A stretch of DNA of 64,000 bases from a virus. This document shows, in pieces, positions 30,333-39,491 of the stretch. Position 1 is the first letter of the stretch, and each line of letters opens with the position of its first letter. The position numbers and the translations under genes are program-made. The stretch is from positions 124,001-188,000 of the IMG/VR virus record IMGVR_UViG_3300021057_000274, one strand, 5' to 3'. Below the pieces are notes generated by a model. That model searched no databases, was not told where the DNA came from, and worked only from the letters and a program-made list of their open reading frames with translations.

Positions 30333-30616
30333 AGCTAAGCGACATCTACGAGAAGTCAGCATACATCGCCACGGGGAACTCTGAGGATCTGGACGATAAC
30401 CTCACGACCTTTGAGGTGATCGGCGAAAACGAAGAGGAAGCATACAGCGTCGTCATCACCAAGGACGGCAAGGTCGACAGCGTCAATCCTGAGCCAAATG
30501 CCGATCGCGAGGCGATCATCAAGCCTGCGCTCGATCTGTTCAAAAAGCGCGGACGCGGGTCATACACCGATCTGCCTGCTAGCCAAAACGTCGGCAACAT
30601 CAAGCCAGCCAAGTGA
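30329..30616 (+). CDS. Hypothetical 95-aa acidic protein
   Basis: GTG start, overlapping both neighbours by four bases. Reads MKLSDIYEKSAYIATGNSED, then an acidic EVIGENEEEAYSVVITKDGK and a basic KKRGRGSY patch. Small alpha-beta protein. Strict coupling to the RimK-like gene suggests it may act with it (as a partner or as a substrate with acidic character), but no family is recognised. Confidence 0.6.
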   Translation: MKLSDIYEKSAYIATGNSEDLDDNLTTFEVIGENEEEAYSVVITKDGKVDSVNPEPNADREAIIKPALDLFKKRGRGSYTDLPASQNVGNIKPAK

Positions 30617-32154
30617 AGCTCCTCATCTTCACCGCCGAACCGAAGAACTTCGTCCCTGTCAAGATCGCAGAGGCGGCGGAGAAGGCTGGGTTCGAGTCGG
30701 CGGAGATCATCGACGTCACCCGTCTCATCCTCCTCGACTGGGAGAACGCTGAGATCTTCCGCGTCGTTCACGCCGAGCAGAGAGAGGGCGAGGAACCTGT
30801 CGAGCCCCAGATCGAGACTCTCCAGATCGACGAGAGCACCGTCATCATCCCGAGGCTCAACGAGCACCACCTCGACGTCAAGCTGTCAATCCTCAAGCGC
30901 GCCCAGCTCAAGGGCGCGAAGATGGTCAACTCGCCCGAGAGCATGGAGCTCTGCAACGACAAGCTGATGTCACAGGTGCTGCTGTCGAGCAATGGGGTCA
31001 TGACGCCAATCACTTACACGATTCCAGGCTGCGAGAAGTCGCTCGAGCCAGCGGTGATGCACATCGAGAAGTCAGGCATGAAGTTCCCGATGATCCTGAA
31101 GACCCTCCGAGGCACCCACGGAATCGGAGTCATGCGCGTCGACTCAAAGGCGTCGCTGACCTCGGTCGCACAGACGCTCTGCAAGGAAGGACTAGACGTT
31201 CTCATCCAGCAATACATCGAGCACGAGCACTCGTTCCGTATGATCATGGTCGGTCAAGAGCTGCTCGCCGCAAACAAGCGGGGTCAACCCAAGGACAAGG
31301 GCGAGTTTAGAACGAACGCGCATCTCGGCTCTCAGACGGAGGCCTACGAGCCTACCCAAGCCGAGATCGACCTCGGCAAGAAGATTGTCGCTCTCTTCGG
31401 CTGTAACTTCTGCGCGATCGACTACATCATGCTAGACGACAAGATCATCGTTCTTGAGGTCAACGGCTCACCAGGGCTCGAGAACATCCAGTCGAACTAC
31501 CCCGACCGTGATCTCCCGGCAAAGGTCGCAGAGTACGCGTTGACCTTCGTGAACGGGATCGCCGATCTAAAGACTGATGCCAACAGCGCTCCACCGACCG
31601 AGGACGAGATGGCGGTGGACAATCAAGCTCTGGCCGAACCTCCTGCTCTAGCAACTGATCTGGCGCCAGTCGAGCCAGCCACTGAGCCTACCGCGCCGAC
31701 GACGGAGCCGACCAACGACCGCTCTCCCGGCCAGATCAGCGAGGTTGAGCAGGTGATCATTCACCAGATCATCGAGGAACCTGTTGAGGCTAGGGTTGAC
31801 ACTGGAGCTAAGACGTCGTCACTTCACGTCGACAAGCTCGAGTTTGATGATGACTGGGCGAAGTTCACTCGTAAGGATTCTACCTTCAAGGTTCCTGTCG
31901 CACGCATCATCAAGGTCAAGAACGTCCACGGCGGTGACAACAGCCGCCGACCGGTGGTCAAGCTCGACGTCACGATCAACGACAAGCGTTATAACCGAGT
32001 TGAGTTCTCGCTCAACAACCGTGAGCAGATGAAGTATCAGGTGATCGTCGGTCGCAACCTGATTGAACTAGTCGGACTTCCTGTGACCGTCAAGACCAAC
32101 TCTGAACAGGCCCAAGACGCTCCTGAGGCGAAGGTCGAGATCGAAGAAGAGTAG
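30613..32154 (+). CDS. RimK-type ATP-grasp ligase fused to RimB-type aspartic protease
   Basis: 513 residues in two modules. Residues 1-310 form a RimK-like ATP-grasp ligase: ILKTLRGTHGIGVMRV (about 161-176) is the ATP loop and IVLEVNGSPGLENIQ (279-293) the metal-binding end. After a Pro/Thr/Glu linker (about 325-372) comes a protease-like module with ARVDTGAKTSSLHV (Asp396-Thr-Gly) and a late VIVGRNLIELVGLPV, matching the RimB/retropepsin-like zinc-protease family found beside rimK. RimK adds Glu to ribosomal protein S6 and RimB removes it. A single chain with both activities could edit a tail of one protein. Target unknown. Confidence 0.8.
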   Translation: MKLLIFTAEPKNFVPVKIAEAAEKAGFESAEIIDVTRLILLDWENAEIFRVVHAEQREGEEPVEPQIETLQIDESTVIIPRLNEHHLDVKLSILKRAQLKGAKMVNSPESMELCNDKLMSQVLLSSNGVMTPITYTIPGCEKSLEPAVMHIEKSGMKFPMILKTLRGTHGIGVMRVDSKASLTSVAQTLCKEGLDVLIQQYIEHEHSFRMIMVGQELLAANKRGQPKDKGEFRTNAHLGSQTEAYEPTQAEIDLGKKIVALFGCNFCAIDYIMLDDKIIVLEVNGSPGLENIQSNYPDRDLPAKVAEYALTFVNGIADLKTDANSAPPTEDEMAVDNQALAEPPALATDLAPVEPATEPTAPTTEPTNDRSPGQISEVEQVIIHQIIEEPVEARVDTGAKTSSLHVDKLEFDDDWAKFTRKDSTFKVPVARIIKVKNVHGGDNSRRPVVKLDVTINDKRYNRVEFSLNNREQMKYQVIVGRNLIELVGLPVTVKTNSEQAQDAPEAKVEIEEE

Positions 32155-32850: not shown

Positions 32851-32880
32851 GACTCCAGTGTCATTTTGCACGGGAACTGG

Positions 32881-33075
32881 ATGTCTCACGAGATTGAGGT
32901 AAATTACTCGATTCTGAACGGAAGCATCCGAGGGAAGCGGTCATTTCCGCTCATCTCGAAGAAGTCTGGCAAAGCTCTCAGGGCGGTCGCTGAAGCCAAG
33001 GCTCGTCTCATCGTTCAGAAGATGATCAAGTGCGATCCGCAGCAGATCATCATCAATCACCTGTCGATCGGTTAA
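32881..33075 (+). CDS. Hypothetical 64-aa protein
   Basis: ATG with GGGA about eight bases upstream. Basic, soluble: MSHEIEVNYSILNGSIRGKR and KKSGKALRAVAEAKARLIVQ. The stop TAA forms part of the TAAATAG motif before the release-factor gene. Probably expressed from the sigma70-type promoter. No family recognised. Confidence 0.6.
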   Translation: MSHEIEVNYSILNGSIRGKRSFPLISKKSGKALRAVAEAKARLIVQKMIKCDPQQIIINHLSIG

Positions 33076-33083: not shown

Positions 33084-33758
33084 ATGAAGATCCTCATCGA
33101 GATCCGCCCCGGCGAGGGCGGGGACGACGCCAAGCTGCTCGTCCAAGACCAAGGCAAGATCTACCTCCGCTACGCGGAGCGCAACGGCCTGAGTGCGGAC
33201 GTCGATCTCGACAAGGGTTGACTGACGATCGAGCTGTCTGGAGAGGATAAGCTCGTCAAACCTCTCCTCCTCGAGGCCGGGGGACACCGTTGGCAGAGAA
33301 TTCCACCGACGGAGAAGCGAGGCCGAGTCCACACCAGCACCGTTACCGTCGCGGTCTTACAGCTCGGTGACGAGAGAACCTATCGTCTTCGTGATCAAGA
33401 CATCCAGGTCTTCACGAAGCGCGGAAGCGGCCCGGGTGGGCAGCATCGTAACAAGACCGAATCGGACGTCGTCATGCGCCACCTTCCGACAGGTCTAGAG
33501 GCGATCGCGACTAGCAAGTCACAGCACAACAACCGGAAGACCGCTCGAGCGATCCTAGAGGCTCGGGTTGCCGCGCTCTACGCCGAACGAGCTGCTGGAG
33601 CTAGAGACGCAGAGCGAGCGAAGCAAGTAGGAAGCGGAATGCGCGGCGACAAGATCAGAACCTACCGGGAGAGAGACGACGTCGTCACTGATCACCGAAC
33701 AGAGCGAAAGTGCCGACTTAGTGACGTGCAACGAGGGCTGCTTGAGCGACTTAGGTGA
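33084..33758 (+). CDS. RF1-like peptide chain release factor with in-frame UGA
   Basis: Read through, 224 residues; codon 46 (33219-33221) is TGA. The two halves are in the same frame. The upstream half gives EIRPGEGGDDAKLL, a domain 2 start. The downstream half gives GGHRWQRIPPTEKRGRVHTS, with a P-x-T stop-recognition motif (PPT at 74-76) as in RF1, and the peptidyl-hydrolysis motif GSGPGGQH (GGQ at 118-120). Domain 1 is absent, as in short release-factor-like proteins. The codon after TGA begins with C, a leaky context. Options are readthrough, a mutation or a sequencing error. It overlaps the first minus-strand gene by eight bases. Confidence 0.75.
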
Positions 33759-34876: not shown

Positions 34877-35278
34877 TTACTCCGGCTTCTCTGGTTTGTC
34901 TTTCTTGTCTTCCTTCTTCGTCGGCTCTGGCGTCGGAAGAGTTTGCCCGCCCGTAAACTTCTTGTCAAGGAAGCCACGGAACCACTTTCCGAAGCCCTCG
35001 ACGCCTGCGATGAAGAGGAGCCAGAGACCGAAGAGCTCCCAGCCCAGACTCAACATGTAAGCGTACCAGCCGATGAAGAGCGTCGAGAAGACGATGCCGA
35101 CACAGATCCCGAGCTTGTTCGCGTCACCGTATTGCTTTCCGTCAGCTCCGCGACTTGAGAAGAAGTGCCACCACTCGATCGGGTTTTCGGGGTCGTTGAT
35201 GACTCGCACGAGCCCCCAGACAAAGACGAGGAGCAAGACTACTCCCATGATCGCTTCTAGTTCTAACGTCAGTTCCAT
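34877..35278 (-). CDS. Holin-like three-span membrane protein
   Basis: 133 residues with three hydrophobic helices (about 10-27, 55-75 and 81-98) and a charged Lys/Pro/Glu-rich cytoplasmic tail (PTPEPTKKEDKKDKPEKPE). Three spans and a polar tail match class I holins, which form the lesions that release or activate the endolysin. The position directly before the spanins supports the call. Its ATG overlaps the tail-fibre stop (TAATG). Confidence 0.6.
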   Translation of the reverse strand: MELTLELEAIMGVVLLLVFVWGLVRVINDPENPIEWWHFFSSRGADGKQYGDANKLGICVGIVFSTLFIGWYAYMLSLGWELFGLWLLFIAGVEGFGKWFRGFLDKKFTGGQTLPTPEPTKKEDKKDKPEKPE

Positions 35279-37287
35279 TATGCGTATCTGATCCAGATGT
35301 CGCCGTCGACTCCGCCTGAGGGGCCGCTGGTGGAGACCGTCTTAGCCGAGTTGCCCCAGAGGGTCGCGTTGTTCGCGTTCGTCGCTGTCGTTGCGTTGTT
35401 CGCGTTCGTCGCCGTGGTAGCCGTCGTCGCCGTGTCAGCGTTGCCTTGTAGCGCTCCGATGAAGGTGGTCGCAGTAACGTTACGGGCCGCAAAGTCGCCG
35501 TTGTTGTCACGGAGCACGATCTTATTAGCGGTGTTGGTGGAGACCGCCTCGATCGTCGCACTGTTTTGCTGGCCGGTGATGCTGCTTGCGGTGGTGGCCG
35601 TCGTCGCGGACGTAGCCGTCGTCGCGGACGTAGCCGTCGTCGCGTTGCCTTGCAACGCCCCGATGAAAGTCGTCGCTGTGACGATGCGAGCGGCGAAGTC
35701 GCCGTTGCTGTCACGGAGCACGATCTTGTTAGCGGTATTGGTAGAAACCGCCTCGATCGTCGCGCTGTTTTGCTGATTCGTGATCGTCGACGCGGTGGTC
35801 GCCGTCGTCGCGTTGCCCGTAACGTTGCCCGTGACGTTGCCGGTCAAGTTGCCGACGACGTTGCCCGTGACGTTGCCAGTGAGAGGCCCGAGGAACACGG
35901 TCGCGGTGATCTCACGAGCTGCGAAGTCTCCGTCGGCGTCACGAAGGACGATGCGATCGCCGATGTTATTTGCGGTCGCGGTGATCGTCGCGCTGTTGGC
36001 TTGGCCGACGATGCTCACCGCTGACATCGTCTGATCTGCCCAACCCACGCGAATCGCGGCGCCGTGTGAGGATGTAAAGTTCCAACGCGACCCGTCCCAC
36101 GCGATCGAGTTGGTGTAGGTGGACCCGTGCGACGTCGTGTACAAGTTGGTCGCGTTCGTCGCGGTAGTCGCGGTAGTCGCCGTGGTAGCAGTGGTCGCGG
36201 TGGTCGCGGTGGTCGCGGTGGTAGCTGTAGTCGCGGTAGTCGCCGTGGTAGCTGAGGTGGCGTTCCCCGTGAGCGCTCCGACGAACGTGGTCGCTGTAAC
36301 CACGTTCGCTGAAAAGTCACCGTTGCTGTCTCGCAGAACGATGCGGTTTGCGGTGTTGGTCGACGTCGCGACTATCGTCGCGCTGTTCGCTTGATTGGTG
36401 ATGGTACCAGCCGTAGTTGCGGTGGTCGCGGAAGTCGCCGTGGTAGCCGTCGTCGCGGTCGTTGCGGTGGTAGCGTTAGTCGCGTTAGTGGCATTAGTTG
36501 CGTTAGTCGCATTGGTAGCATTCGTCGCAAAGTTGACCCGGGTCGGGCCGATGGGACGCCACCTCAGAGTCGTGCCGTCGTATCGTACGGTGAACGACTC
36601 GGCGGCGGCGATCGCAAAGTCCTCAGAGCCGTTGAGAGCGAAGCGGTTAGCCGCGGTCGAGTTGGTGCTCTCGTTCTTGAGCACGATCGGGAACGAGCCG
36701 ATGTTGTGGATGATCAAGACCCGCTCAGGCGTCGTCGGCACGATGCCCGTGATGTCACGGCTGGCGTCAGTCGAGACGCGCAAGATGTTAGCTGTATCGA
36801 GGCCTGTAGGGTTGTAATTGTTTTGATTACCCGTGATCTGGGCCGGCGAGATGACCTCAGGGAGCGTGAAGAGGGCGACCTGAGACTCGACGGCTACCCA
36901 GTTTCCACCGTTGTCATAGACCTTGAGAACGTCATTGACCGTGTCATACCAGAGGTCGCCAGAGTAGTGGGTTCCAGTCGGCTCGGCTCCAGCGTCGATC
37001 CTGCGATACGCGAGGTCGTTCCACGCAGCTGTGTGGTAGACGTAGAGGCGCTTGTCGCTCGACTTGAACCAGAGCTGTCCGGTGGTCGGGGCGGCTGGAG
37101 CGTTCGCCGAGGCCGAGTGCTCGAGCATCCGGATCAAATTTTCCTGGAGCTTCTCGCCCCAGTTTGCTACGCCCTTTCCTGTGAGGGTCAGTGACGTCGA
37201 CGTAGTGTCGACGGTGCGGGCGGAGAGCACAAACGGGGGCTTGAGCCCGTCGTCTGACCAATTCAGGGTATAGTTGTTGGTGACCAC
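35278..37287 (-). CDS. Long tail fibre protein with NAT-type repeats (paralogue A)
   Basis: 669 residues. The start is the GTG placed 4 nt after a TAAATAC motif; a longer GTG reading is possible. The first 250 residues parallel the gene at 42354: TLNWSDDGLKPPF, TSLTLTGKGVANWGEK, LRVSTDASRDITG and a final RVNFATNATNAT. The centre is low-complexity NAT/TAT repeats separated by conserved blocks (ANRIVLRDSNGDF). The C-terminus ends GPSGGVDGDIWIRYA, also shared with the paralogue. It is likely a fibrous, trimeric host-contact protein. Confidence 0.8.
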   Translation of the reverse strand: MVTNNYTLNWSDDGLKPPFVLSARTVDTTSTSLTLTGKGVANWGEKLQENLIRMLEHSASANAPAAPTTGQLWFKSSDKRLYVYHTAAWNDLAYRRIDAGAEPTGTHYSGDLWYDTVNDVLKVYDNGGNWVAVESQVALFTLPEVISPAQITGNQNNYNPTGLDTANILRVSTDASRDITGIVPTTPERVLIIHNIGSFPIVLKNESTNSTAANRFALNGSEDFAIAAAESFTVRYDGTTLRWRPIGPTRVNFATNATNATNATNATNATNATTATTATTATTATSATTATTAGTITNQANSATIVATSTNTANRIVLRDSNGDFSANVVTATTFVGALTGNATSATTATTATTATTATTATTATTATTATTATTATNATNLYTTSHGSTYTNSIAWDGSRWNFTSSHGAAIRVGWADQTMSAVSIVGQANSATITATANNIGDRIVLRDADGDFAAREITATVFLGPLTGNVTGNVVGNLTGNVTGNVTGNATTATTASTITNQQNSATIEAVSTNTANKIVLRDSNGDFAARIVTATTFIGALQGNATTATSATTATSATTATTASSITGQQNSATIEAVSTNTANKIVLRDNNGDFAARNVTATTFIGALQGNADTATTATTATNANNATTATNANNATLWGNSAKTVSTSGPSGGVDGDIWIRYA
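36138..36262 (-). repeat. Short tandem repeats coding Ala-Thr-Thr/Asn-Ala-Thr
   Basis: Imperfect 9-nt units (GTCGCGGTG / GTAGTCGCC types on the plus strand) coding ATT and NAT triplets of the tail fibre. Similar runs lie around 35600 and 36411-36530. A run this repetitive can change length by slippage or recombination. Confidence 0.75.
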
Positions 37288-37290
37288 ACG

Positions 37291-37299
37291 GTATTTATC
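37291..37299 (-). promoter_or_regulatory. Late promoter-type motif (GATAAATAC), leaderless geometry
   Basis: Four bases before the GTG start of tail fibre A on the minus strand. A GGAG lies 11 bases upstream, too far for a normal Shine-Dalgarno. Confidence 0.55.
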
Positions 37300-37314
37300 T
37301 CCGTGAGGACTCAC

Positions 37315-38406
37315 CTACTCGATGTAGTATTTCCTCGTGAAAAAGTTAGGAGACGACTCAAGACCAGCTCTTAGGCACCTAGCGTATCCCTCTCTCAAGA
37401 TCTTGGTCCACCTAGTGATCACCTCTTCGTGTTGCTTTTTCGTGACCCAGCGATCCCAGTCTTGGAGATAACTAGTCCCCGTGAACTTTTCACATAACCC
37501 TCCGCGCACCGTCCACCCAGGATACAGCCACTCATCTAAGGAGCTGAACGAGACAGACGCGCCGTACTTTGAGCGAACGACCCACTTCGAGCTAGTGATA
37601 GACGGATCCACGAACCCAGAGTGAAATCGATCAAGATTTTCCCTTACGACGCTGCACTGCTTGATCAAGATCGGCGCCGCCTCGGGGTCCCAGTAAAACA
37701 AGACCTGATCGAAGGGGAGAGTTAGCTCGTTCCTCTTCGTGTAGAGATGGTTGTCTGAGAGGGCAAAGAAGTATCTCTTGTTAGAGGATTGAAGGATCGT
37801 CTTATCATGCCCCCAGATCACCGCAACTCTCCTGCCAGAGTCAGCGAGCTTTCGATATCTCTCGTCACAATAGAGCCAGTGGCCGCGCCTGAGCGGATGA
37901 CTAAACGTTGAGGGTGATGAGAAATAACCCTCTAGAGGATGCTTGACGTTTCGATAATAGTCGATCAGCACTTGCCGGCTATCGATCAAGGTATAGATCG
38001 TCGCTGGATGTTTAGCTTGATAAGCTTCTACGTCATGAGCAGCTGTTTCAAAGATCTCTCGGCTCAGCAGCGAGGAGCGATCATCGGTGAACCCGACGTC
38101 ATGATAGCTGACGATCTCATCGATCGGGAGATTCGCTTTGTCAAACGATCGTAAGACGTTCCAGCTGTCAGCGCCGCCAGAATAGCAGAGGATCAGATAG
38201 TCATACTTCTCTCTTAGCTGGCGTACGCGATCTTCATAGAGCGAAGTCAGAGGGAGAGGAGACGGCAGCTGCCAATTTTGGCTGAGCCAGAAGCTGTCGT
38301 TCCAGTGAAACGTAACTTGGTCTCTAAATTGCACTCGCTCAAGCGCTTCTAGCTTGTTAGAGTAGAACTTCTCGCCAGCTCGATAGAGACCGTAAGCGTC
38401 GTTCAT
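37315..38406 (-). CDS. PP-loop ATPase-like protein 1
   Basis: 363 residues, starting at the ATG coupled (ATGA) to the previous gene; a longer upstream reading would run into that gene. The PP-loop is LILCYSGGADSWNVLRSFD (SGGADS at 76-81), the ATP-pyrophosphate-binding motif of adenine-nucleotide alpha-hydrolases such as asparagine synthetase, NAD synthetase, QueC and PAPS reductase. A second conserved segment is EIVSYHDVGFT. The C-terminal 200 residues lack a domain I know. It resembles the neighbouring gene throughout. Likely function: amidation or adenylation-dependent modification of an unknown target. Confidence 0.75.
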   Translation of the reverse strand: MNDAYGLYRAGEKFYSNKLEALERVQFRDQVTFHWNDSFWLSQNWQLPSPLPLTSLYEDRVRQLREKYDYLILCYSGGADSWNVLRSFDKANLPIDEIVSYHDVGFTDDRSSLLSREIFETAAHDVEAYQAKHPATIYTLIDSRQVLIDYYRNVKHPLEGYFSSPSTFSHPLRRGHWLYCDERYRKLADSGRRVAVIWGHDKTILQSSNKRYFFALSDNHLYTKRNELTLPFDQVLFYWDPEAAPILIKQCSVVRENLDRFHSGFVDPSITSSKWVVRSKYGASVSFSSLDEWLYPGWTVRGGLCEKFTGTSYLQDWDRWVTKKQHEEVITRWTKILREGYARCLRAGLESSPNFFTRKYYIE

Positions 38407-39491
38407 TCGATGAAATAGGGTCGTGAGGAGAAGATCGGAGATGAGACGCCAGCCTTCTTGTAATAATTGGCGGCCATCTTGACCACGGTTGCCCACTTTT
38501 GTACCAGAGGATCGCTGAGGTGATCAAGAACCCAGAAATCTTGCTCAGAGAGAAAGGGAGAACCTCCGAACCGCCCCTCTGAAAAGGTTGCTGGATTCCA
38601 CCCGTAGAGCAGAGCGTTGATCGTCGTGAACGAAACCCGATGCCCTGTCTTAGACCGCTGAAAAGCTACCTTCTTCGCTTTAAGATTGATCGGATAAGGG
38701 TCTATGAATTTACCCGGCAAGCGATCTAAGAAGCTCTTGACCTGGTGACAACTCTTGATCAAGAGAGCAGGAAGGTCCGTAGAAAAGTAAAAGAACTCAT
38801 CGGTGACGGGAAGGTGGCTCTTGGCGTAAGCTTGTGAGATGTAGTCGATGAACTGAAAGCAATAGCGTCCGTCAGTGATCTTGAGATGTACCTTGTCAAA
38901 GCCCCAGAGCAAGCATACCCTCTTTCCAGACTCTAGCAGCTTCTGGTACCTATCTACGCCGTGCATGAAACACCCGCCCCTGATCGGTGACAAGGGACTG
39001 ACGGGAGAGACGTAGTATCCAGAAAGTAACTCTTCAGCGCTCGTTCGAGCCCAAACGTCTAGCAAGAGCGGCTTGGCGTCGATCAACGTAAAGCGGCTGT
39101 TGGGAACCCGCTTCACGTAATCTAGAGCTACCGGTTCGGCTACCGTGAAGATCTCTGAGCTAGCTTTTGAGAGACGATCACCTGTAAAGCCGTAGTCATG
39201 GTAGCTGACGATCTCATCAAGAAAGATGCCTGCGTCGTCAAAAGTTTTTAAGACGTTCCAGCTGTCAGCGCCGCCAGAGTAAGCTAAAATGATGTAGTCG
39301 TACTTGCTTCGAAGCTGTTCAGCTCTAGCGCGATAGAGCTCCCTGAGAGGAACGTCTGGGGGTGCTAGCCAATCTTGCTTGGCCCAGATCTCGTCTTGAA
39401 AGTAAAACTTCGGTGCAGTCCCCCTTGCGGCGTCGATCGCTTCAAACTTGTTTCGAAAGAGCTTCTCGCCGACGAGATAACCGCTGATCAC
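38403..39491 (-). CDS. PP-loop ATPase-like protein 2 (paralogue of protein 1)
   Basis: 362 residues, GTG start by the overlap with TctC. The PP-loop is YIILAYSGGADSWNVLKTFD (SGGADS at 72-77) and the following EIVSYHDYGFTGDRLSKASS matches protein 1. Both share N-terminal VGEKL/GEKFY-F-NK-EA, L-E-Y-I-E-type ends and a W-G-DK-like middle (VCLLWGFDKVHLK). The two genes therefore arose by duplication and are translated together. Similar size and no fused glutaminase domain are visible. Confidence 0.75.
   Translation of the reverse strand: MISGYLVGEKLFRNKFEAIDAARGTAPKFYFQDEIWAKQDWLAPPDVPLRELYRARAEQLRSKYDYIILAYSGGADSWNVLKTFDDAGIFLDEIVSYHDYGFTGDRLSKASSEIFTVAEPVALDYVKRVPNSRFTLIDAKPLLLDVWARTSAEELLSGYYVSPVSPLSPIRGGCFMHGVDRYQKLLESGKRVCLLWGFDKVHLKITDGRYCFQFIDYISQAYAKSHLPVTDEFFYFSTDLPALLIKSCHQVKSFLDRLPGKFIDPYPINLKAKKVAFQRSKTGHRVSFTTINALLYGWNPATFSEGRFGGSPFLSEQDFWVLDHLSDPLVQKWATVVKMAANYYKKAGVSSPIFSSRPYFIE

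Follow-up and report, generated by a model that had tools for sequence, protein, structure and literature searches.

A Conserved In-Frame UGA Probably Gates a Phage RF1-like Release Factor Gene Lacking Domain 1

The window, that is, the whole stretch of 64,000 nucleotides analysed here (positions 124,001 to 188,000 of the 389,331-base phage record IMGVR_UViG_3300021057_000274), carries on its plus strand at 33084–33758 a release factor (RF) gene called mini-RF1, which has RF1 domains 2–4 and is without domain 1. Its translation gives 45 codons, a TGA at codon 46 (33219–33221), 178 further codons in the same frame and a true terminal TGA, which makes 224 codons if the UGA is read through. The read-through protein matches the Pfam domains PCRF (8.5e-19) and RF-1 (1e-22), and in the PDB it aligns end to end with RF1 domains 2–4 (1.4e-43), the best solved relative being T. 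maritima RF1. The AlphaFold model, built on 22 family members (pLDDT 90, pTM 0.77), superposes on ribosome-bound RF1 with a TM of about 0.9. The P-P-T stop-recognition motif, of the RF1 P-x-T type, is located at 33303–33311 with the RF1-type Gln before it (QRIPPTE), and the GGQ motif of peptidyl-tRNA hydrolysis at 33435–33443. That is to say, both domains, the GGQ and the P-x-T with its preceding Gln that mark RF1 (the prfA equivalog) are all present, and the motif with its Gln suggests a specificity for UAA and UAG. However, the protein starts at domain 2 and scores 199 against the prfA NCBIfam cut-off of 400, so it falls short of the RF1 equivalog. The sequence-only reading had proposed an RF1-like factor beginning at domain 2, and the missing domain 1 agrees with it; domain 1 was absent from every family member examined.

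A 69-aa ORF lies upstream on the same strand (32866–33075), stops 8 nt before the RF start and is a possible operon partner; it matches no Pfam family, and a separate domain 1 is therefore not seen there. No second gene with an RF-1 domain was found in the 389,331-base record, the searches for RF3 in the phage and for RtcB in its record were negative, and the methyltransferase search for a PrmC-like gene gave one partial match in the phage. Elsewhere in the window, 30613–32154 encodes a fusion of a RimK-like ATP-grasp domain with a putative ATP-dependent zinc protease domain. The minus-strand gene at 35278–37314 is probably a tail-fibre gene with long residue repeats (TATTATTATT), hence its long open antisense frames. 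Two adjacent minus-strand paralogues (37315–38496 and 38403–39491) have a PP-loop-like motif (YSGGADSWNVL), and the former has no Pfam match.

The sequence around codon 46 is GAC AAG GGT TGA CTG ACG. The Gly codon GGT (33216–33218) stands just before the UGA, GGY-UGA being the norm of the family, the +4 base is C (33222), and a candidate hairpin with a CGAGCU/AGCUCG core (33227–33257) begins 6 nt past the UGA, its synonymous-shuffle z of −0.63 not being significant alone. In the model, codon 46 falls in the turn between strands 37–43 and 46–52 of domain 2, and because it sits between these two strands, a fragment of 45 residues would probably not function as a release factor. The features of an RF2-type frameshift site (an SD-like sequence, CTT UGA C and a +1 continuation) are lacking in the window, where GGT TGA CTG is found and frame 0 continues; a simple +1 shift cannot serve here because the +1 frame closes one codon past the shift point (GAC TGA). 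Translation thus reproduced both the interruption of a one-frame gene at codon 46 and the earlier statement that no frameshift is needed, the gene after the UGA being in phase.

Searching viral contigs with the protein yielded 21 loci, and profile searches added the best 80 of 472 viral relatives, the best 80 loci of bacterial and archaeal genomes, and the best 80 of an extra search for the window clade, mostly repeats. About 110 distinct homologues were resolved, and those with a clear N-terminal part were sorted by frame-aware analysis into three classes, whose frequencies are biased because the confirming alignment scores a single frame best and in-frame genes are therefore over-represented in the best-80 lists. 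Class A has an in-frame GGN TGA (rarely another preceding codon) at the RF1 QGW/QGF column, except in L074, where the UGA comes two codons later; it comprises 60 tree rows and 12 later loci, none intact and none with a sense codon instead. Class B, that of the window, has its in-frame stop about ten codons beyond the class A site, in a column that is not a Trp column in RF1; the stop is TGA in the window, L002, L003, L004, L014, L025, L026, L206 and the Variovorax plasmids L203 and L204, and TAG in L005. Class C has CTT TGA followed by the +1 frame, usually preceded by CGGAGG, and the full set of RF2-type frameshift features occurs in L006, L007, L102 and others, while L016, L020, L107 and L109 have CTT TAG instead. 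In nearly all members the recoded stop is UGA; it is UAG in five (L005, L016, L020, L107 and L109) and UAA in no well-aligned member, and the uninterrupted members are few (L010, L031, L032, L067, L119 and L214). An apparent link of UAG-type sites to UAG-rich genomes, seen on 10-kb loci, was mostly gone on longer stretches.

Among cultured bacteria, in-frame carriers are Gemmobacter caeni (L110), Thalassospira xianhensis (L111), Bosea sp. RAC05 (L201) and Rhizobium leguminosarum TP16 (L202). Four Variovorax strains also carry the gene, and the two that were read (L203 and L204) each have it annotated as two CDSs. On the Bosea plasmid pBSY19_1 (L201), mini-RF1 is unannotated, an antisense ORF being annotated in its place, and it lies near genes for a RAMP CRISPR-associated protein, Cas6, a helicase and the HipA toxin. 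Pyxidicoccus fallax (L107) has an RF2-like CTT-TAG +1 frameshift site in an RF1-like gene, and actinobacterial isolates (Nostocoides, Actinoplanes, Ornithinimicrobium; L122, L123, L126 and L127) have more distant mini-RFs with CTT TGA +1 frameshift sites. In a megaphage clade (L040, L186, L188, L213 and L269), each RF gene has two in-frame stops, TGA and then TGA or TAG; in L040, the double-stop locus with long flanks, nothing points to a dense reassignment of TGA.

In the tree of 115 rows, the 60 rows of class A group as a single clade (SH-aLRT 93), all with the in-frame UGA, and the stop has been lost in no member though UGG is one transition away and identity goes down to about 40%. Of the 10 rows of the window clade (SH-aLRT 97), seven carry UGA and one carries UAG as a readthrough stop, and two (L006 and L102) are of the frameshift type. 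A third, mostly frameshifting clade of 30 rows, cultured myxobacteria among them, has a single in-frame row, L029, and three in which the stop is UAG. From these mixed rows it follows that readthrough and frameshifting have taken each other's place, in the window clade and at L029 at the least, while the stop itself was kept. Alignment with relatives thus confirmed the UGA as conserved, an in-frame stop being retained in most viral relatives of the window clade and the UGA in all 60 class A rows. As for the picture of control drawn from the window, its recoded UGA stands, and it has to be amended in that the gene belongs to a large family whose members also shift to +1 in the manner of RF2, sometimes at UAG.

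The gene is under purifying selection before the UGA (pN/pS 0.09) as well as after it (0.185); a conserved in-frame stop with such selection on each side is the pattern expected of programmed readthrough. Restart does not explain the gene, because the first ATG after the recoded stop is a median of 119 codons on. Rather than intact frames with no selection for UGA, nearly all relatives show a retained recoded stop within a constrained gene, and the largest clade adds a covarying 3′ stem. These results support the earlier claim that the full-length factor requires readthrough of the UGA.

The signals around the stop differ among the classes. T at +4 occurs in 0/72 in-frame and 0/27 frameshift UGAs, against 63/203 terminator TGAs of class A loci (p 4e-10), and GGC is the codon before the class A UGA in 44 of the 56 cases with Gly there, whereas elsewhere 38% of the Gly codons are GGC (p 4e-9), many class A rows being close kin, so that near-copies inflate all p-values given here and independence is overstated. 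Since T-first codons make up 12% of the coding background, for which the probability of 0/72 is 8e-5, the avoidance of U at +4 is partly due to coding. Compared with protein-preserving shuffles, class A RNA from the UGA to +78 has a mean z of −2.47 ± 0.19 (80% below −1.5), against −0.65 in its own control region and −0.13 ± 0.23 in the frameshift class (p 8e-9 and 2e-8, respectively). This excess stability is mainly due to a 17-pair stem that begins 8 nt after the UGA; 71% of its cells are paired, against 30–46% when it is slid, and 14 pairs show double changes, with 62 compensatory cells against 28.5 in shuffled alignments (0/500). The stem sequence and loop are not conserved, the divergent members L057, L108 and L111 form other hairpins at its position, and L044, L079 and L110 have no excess stability. 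The covarying 3′ stem is absent from the frameshift clade, and in the window clade the stability signal is weak (z −1.09 ± 0.40, n = 8) and does not differ from that of its own control (p 0.64).

RF2 is the release factor that reads UGA. A ribosome at codon 46 would either terminate and leave a useless 45-residue fragment, or insert an amino acid, likeliest Trp by means of the near-cognate tRNA-Trp(CCA), and complete the 224-residue factor, and because RF2 reads UGA, the yield of mini-RF1 should rise when termination at UGA is slow. The extra RF1-like factor could then take over UAA (and UAG), relieving RF2. Our preferred reading, to which a probability of roughly 0.72 is given, is that programmed UGA readthrough gates the synthesis of mini-RF1, with Trp probably inserted and output going up as termination by RF2 slows. 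Comparison within the family supports readthrough well; in the window clade, homology and the conservation of the stop point to it, and the case of the window copy rests on homology because its own 3′ stem is not significant. Trp is the likely residue, since the class A site is a Trp/Phe column in RF1 and the 48 tRNA genes of the phage include two for tRNA-Trp(CCA) and none with a UCA anticodon; near-cognate tRNA-Trp is a usual reader of UGA (PMC3521657). We infer that the UGA of mini-RF1 may sense RF2, of which depletion would be a plausible trigger. Simple self-regulation as in RF2 would not operate, because the RF1-like specificity (PPT, Gln), if right, excludes the reading of UGA. A wider proposal, put forward tentatively and at somewhat under even odds, is a cross-factor termination sensor, that is, mini-RF1 would be made only when RF2 fails at UGA, phages and mobile elements would rebalance RF1 and RF2 during infection, and one position of the gene would have acquired the arrangement more than once, in the form of either readthrough or frameshift.

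The main competing explanation is a constant throttle, in which a leaky UGA, with no sensing involved, limits the factor to a small constant share of translation because an excess of it would do harm; it is considered rather unlikely. UGA is the leakiest stop codon. The class A stem could set a fixed rate of readthrough, RF1-like specificity would leave a UGA feedback loop unclosed, and it has been reported that overproduced release factors cost fitness (PMC12421855). However, the same end could be reached more simply through a poor ribosome-binding site or start codon, and the swap between readthrough and an RF2-like shifty stop at one gene position suggests that competition with a release factor is the conserved trait.

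Less probable still is true autoregulation, in which mini-RF1 would read UGA in spite of its RF1-like motif and close the loop as RF2 does. The RF2 gene works by the same logic, the recoded stop of the family is nearly always UGA, with the few UAG cases and the lack of UAA described above, and PPT differs from the motifs of the three reference RF1s compared (PAT, PST and PET). In RF1 structures, the P-x-T and the Gln specify A at the second position of the stop codon. Both are retained in mini-RF1, and self-sensing through RF1 specificity would predict UAG more often, which speaks against such a loop.

It is very improbable that UGA simply codes for an amino acid (code 4 or a like code), or that a suppressor tRNA of the phage reads it, with nothing regulated, even though some code-4 phages carry RF1 together with a UGA-reading tRNA (PMC10746230) and a few relatives in megaphages contain a second in-frame stop. 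TGA ends 31/60 ORFs of the window (coverage 90%), consistent with the standard code, makes up 12–72% of stops in sampled stretches of 15 other carrier genomes, and terminates genes at the carrier loci of cultured bacteria; the 67 in-frame genes contain a single TGA each (67 in all) as against 135 TGG, so that UGA cannot be their general codon for Trp. Neither the window ORFs, nor the per-gene counts, nor the 15 other genomes thus fit UGA as sense genome-wide, and together with the lack of a UCA tRNA in the phage they bear out the earlier view that the code is unchanged. As far as the analysis reached, conserved genes of the phage likewise showed no in-frame TGA at Trp positions. TAG ends 9/60 window ORFs, and one phage tRNA, at about 123181–123255 of the record (L199:682–756), 0.75 kb before the window, has the anticodon CUA of the amber suppressor type; despite it, no clear case of TAG recoding was found in the window.

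Selenocysteine insertion is scarcely credible: a UGA with a stem-loop does resemble the layout of a bacterial SECIS, but no Rfam element was matched at the stem or at two other loci, the phage has no UCA-anticodon tRNA, the class A site is Trp/Phe rather than Cys in RF1, UAG replaces UGA in L005, and the stem sequence and loop are unconserved. A decaying gene, a sequencing error or a split RF of two polypeptides, the last of which is the form that the Variovorax annotation gives, is hardly tenable either, as the gene is conserved at about 110 loci under strong purifying selection on both sides of the stop, independent contigs at 38–64% identity share the stop at the same or an adjoining place (which rejects error and chance), no restart past the stop is conserved, and the stop would cut the beta-sheet of domain 2 in the model.

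With UGA readthrough as the preferred reading, the family offers a natural set in which frameshift and readthrough substitute for each other at one site, and the class A stem is a structured bacterial readthrough signal open to dissection. Recoded genes of this kind are split or missed by annotation. No prior description of phage-encoded, truncated or UGA-interrupted release factors was found in the open-access literature, so a report unseen by us is possible; the huge-phage paper lists RF1 and RF2 with recoding unmentioned, and the 2019 release-factor survey describes RF-H as lacking the N-terminal domain, with phages unmentioned.

Among known systems, full-length RF1 (prfA) shares with mini-RF1 the domains 2–4, GGQ, P-x-T and the ribosome-bound RF1 fold, whereas mini-RF1 has no domain 1, reaches 199/400 bits and contains a recoded stop. 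RF-H (prfH) is likewise a small class-I factor without domain 1, but mini-RF1 scores 65.3 against the prfH cut-off of 166.65 bits, keeps the standard RF1 recognition motif and has no RtcB in its phage record. The eRF1-like R726/mg280 of Mimivirus and Megavirus (PMC3521657) is a viral class-I release factor produced by UGA-C readthrough, with Trp proposed, so that, for the “new mode of control” suggested earlier, UGA readthrough of a viral release factor gene already has a precedent. R726/mg280 also needs a frameshift at CUU-UAG/UAA (PMC3521657), which the double in-frame stops of the megaphage clade recall; it differs in being a non-homologous eRF1 of eukaryotic/archaeal type, known from two viruses of amoebae as against a broad family of phages and bacteria. 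The closest parallel is the +1 frameshift of bacterial RF2 (prfB) (PMC5009743; PMC12421855), also a release factor gene with an early recoded stop and an output tied to termination there, and the third clade of the family even uses its CGGAGG-N3-CTT-UGA. Unlike RF2, mini-RF1 of the window stays in phase past the UGA, is RF1-like, lacks domain 1 and has its site within domain 2, and UAG takes the place of the stop in five family members, whereas Prince et al. (2025) found TAG in 0/8,164 prfB motifs and prfA without frameshift regulation (PMC12421855). Atkins et al. (2016) reviewed that an in-frame UGA had been expected for RF2 genes and seen in no bacterium, and that a UAG/RF1 counterpart was unknown, citing only the giant virus of amoebae, an eRF1 (PMC5009743). 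The mini-RF1 family provides close matches to both missing cases in an RF1-like factor of cultured bacteria and phages, namely an in-frame UGA and an in-frame UAG, with CTT-UAG frameshifts in addition, and if the cross-factor sensor is true, bacteria would realise the in-frame UGA circuit that had been suggested before the sequence of prfB was known.
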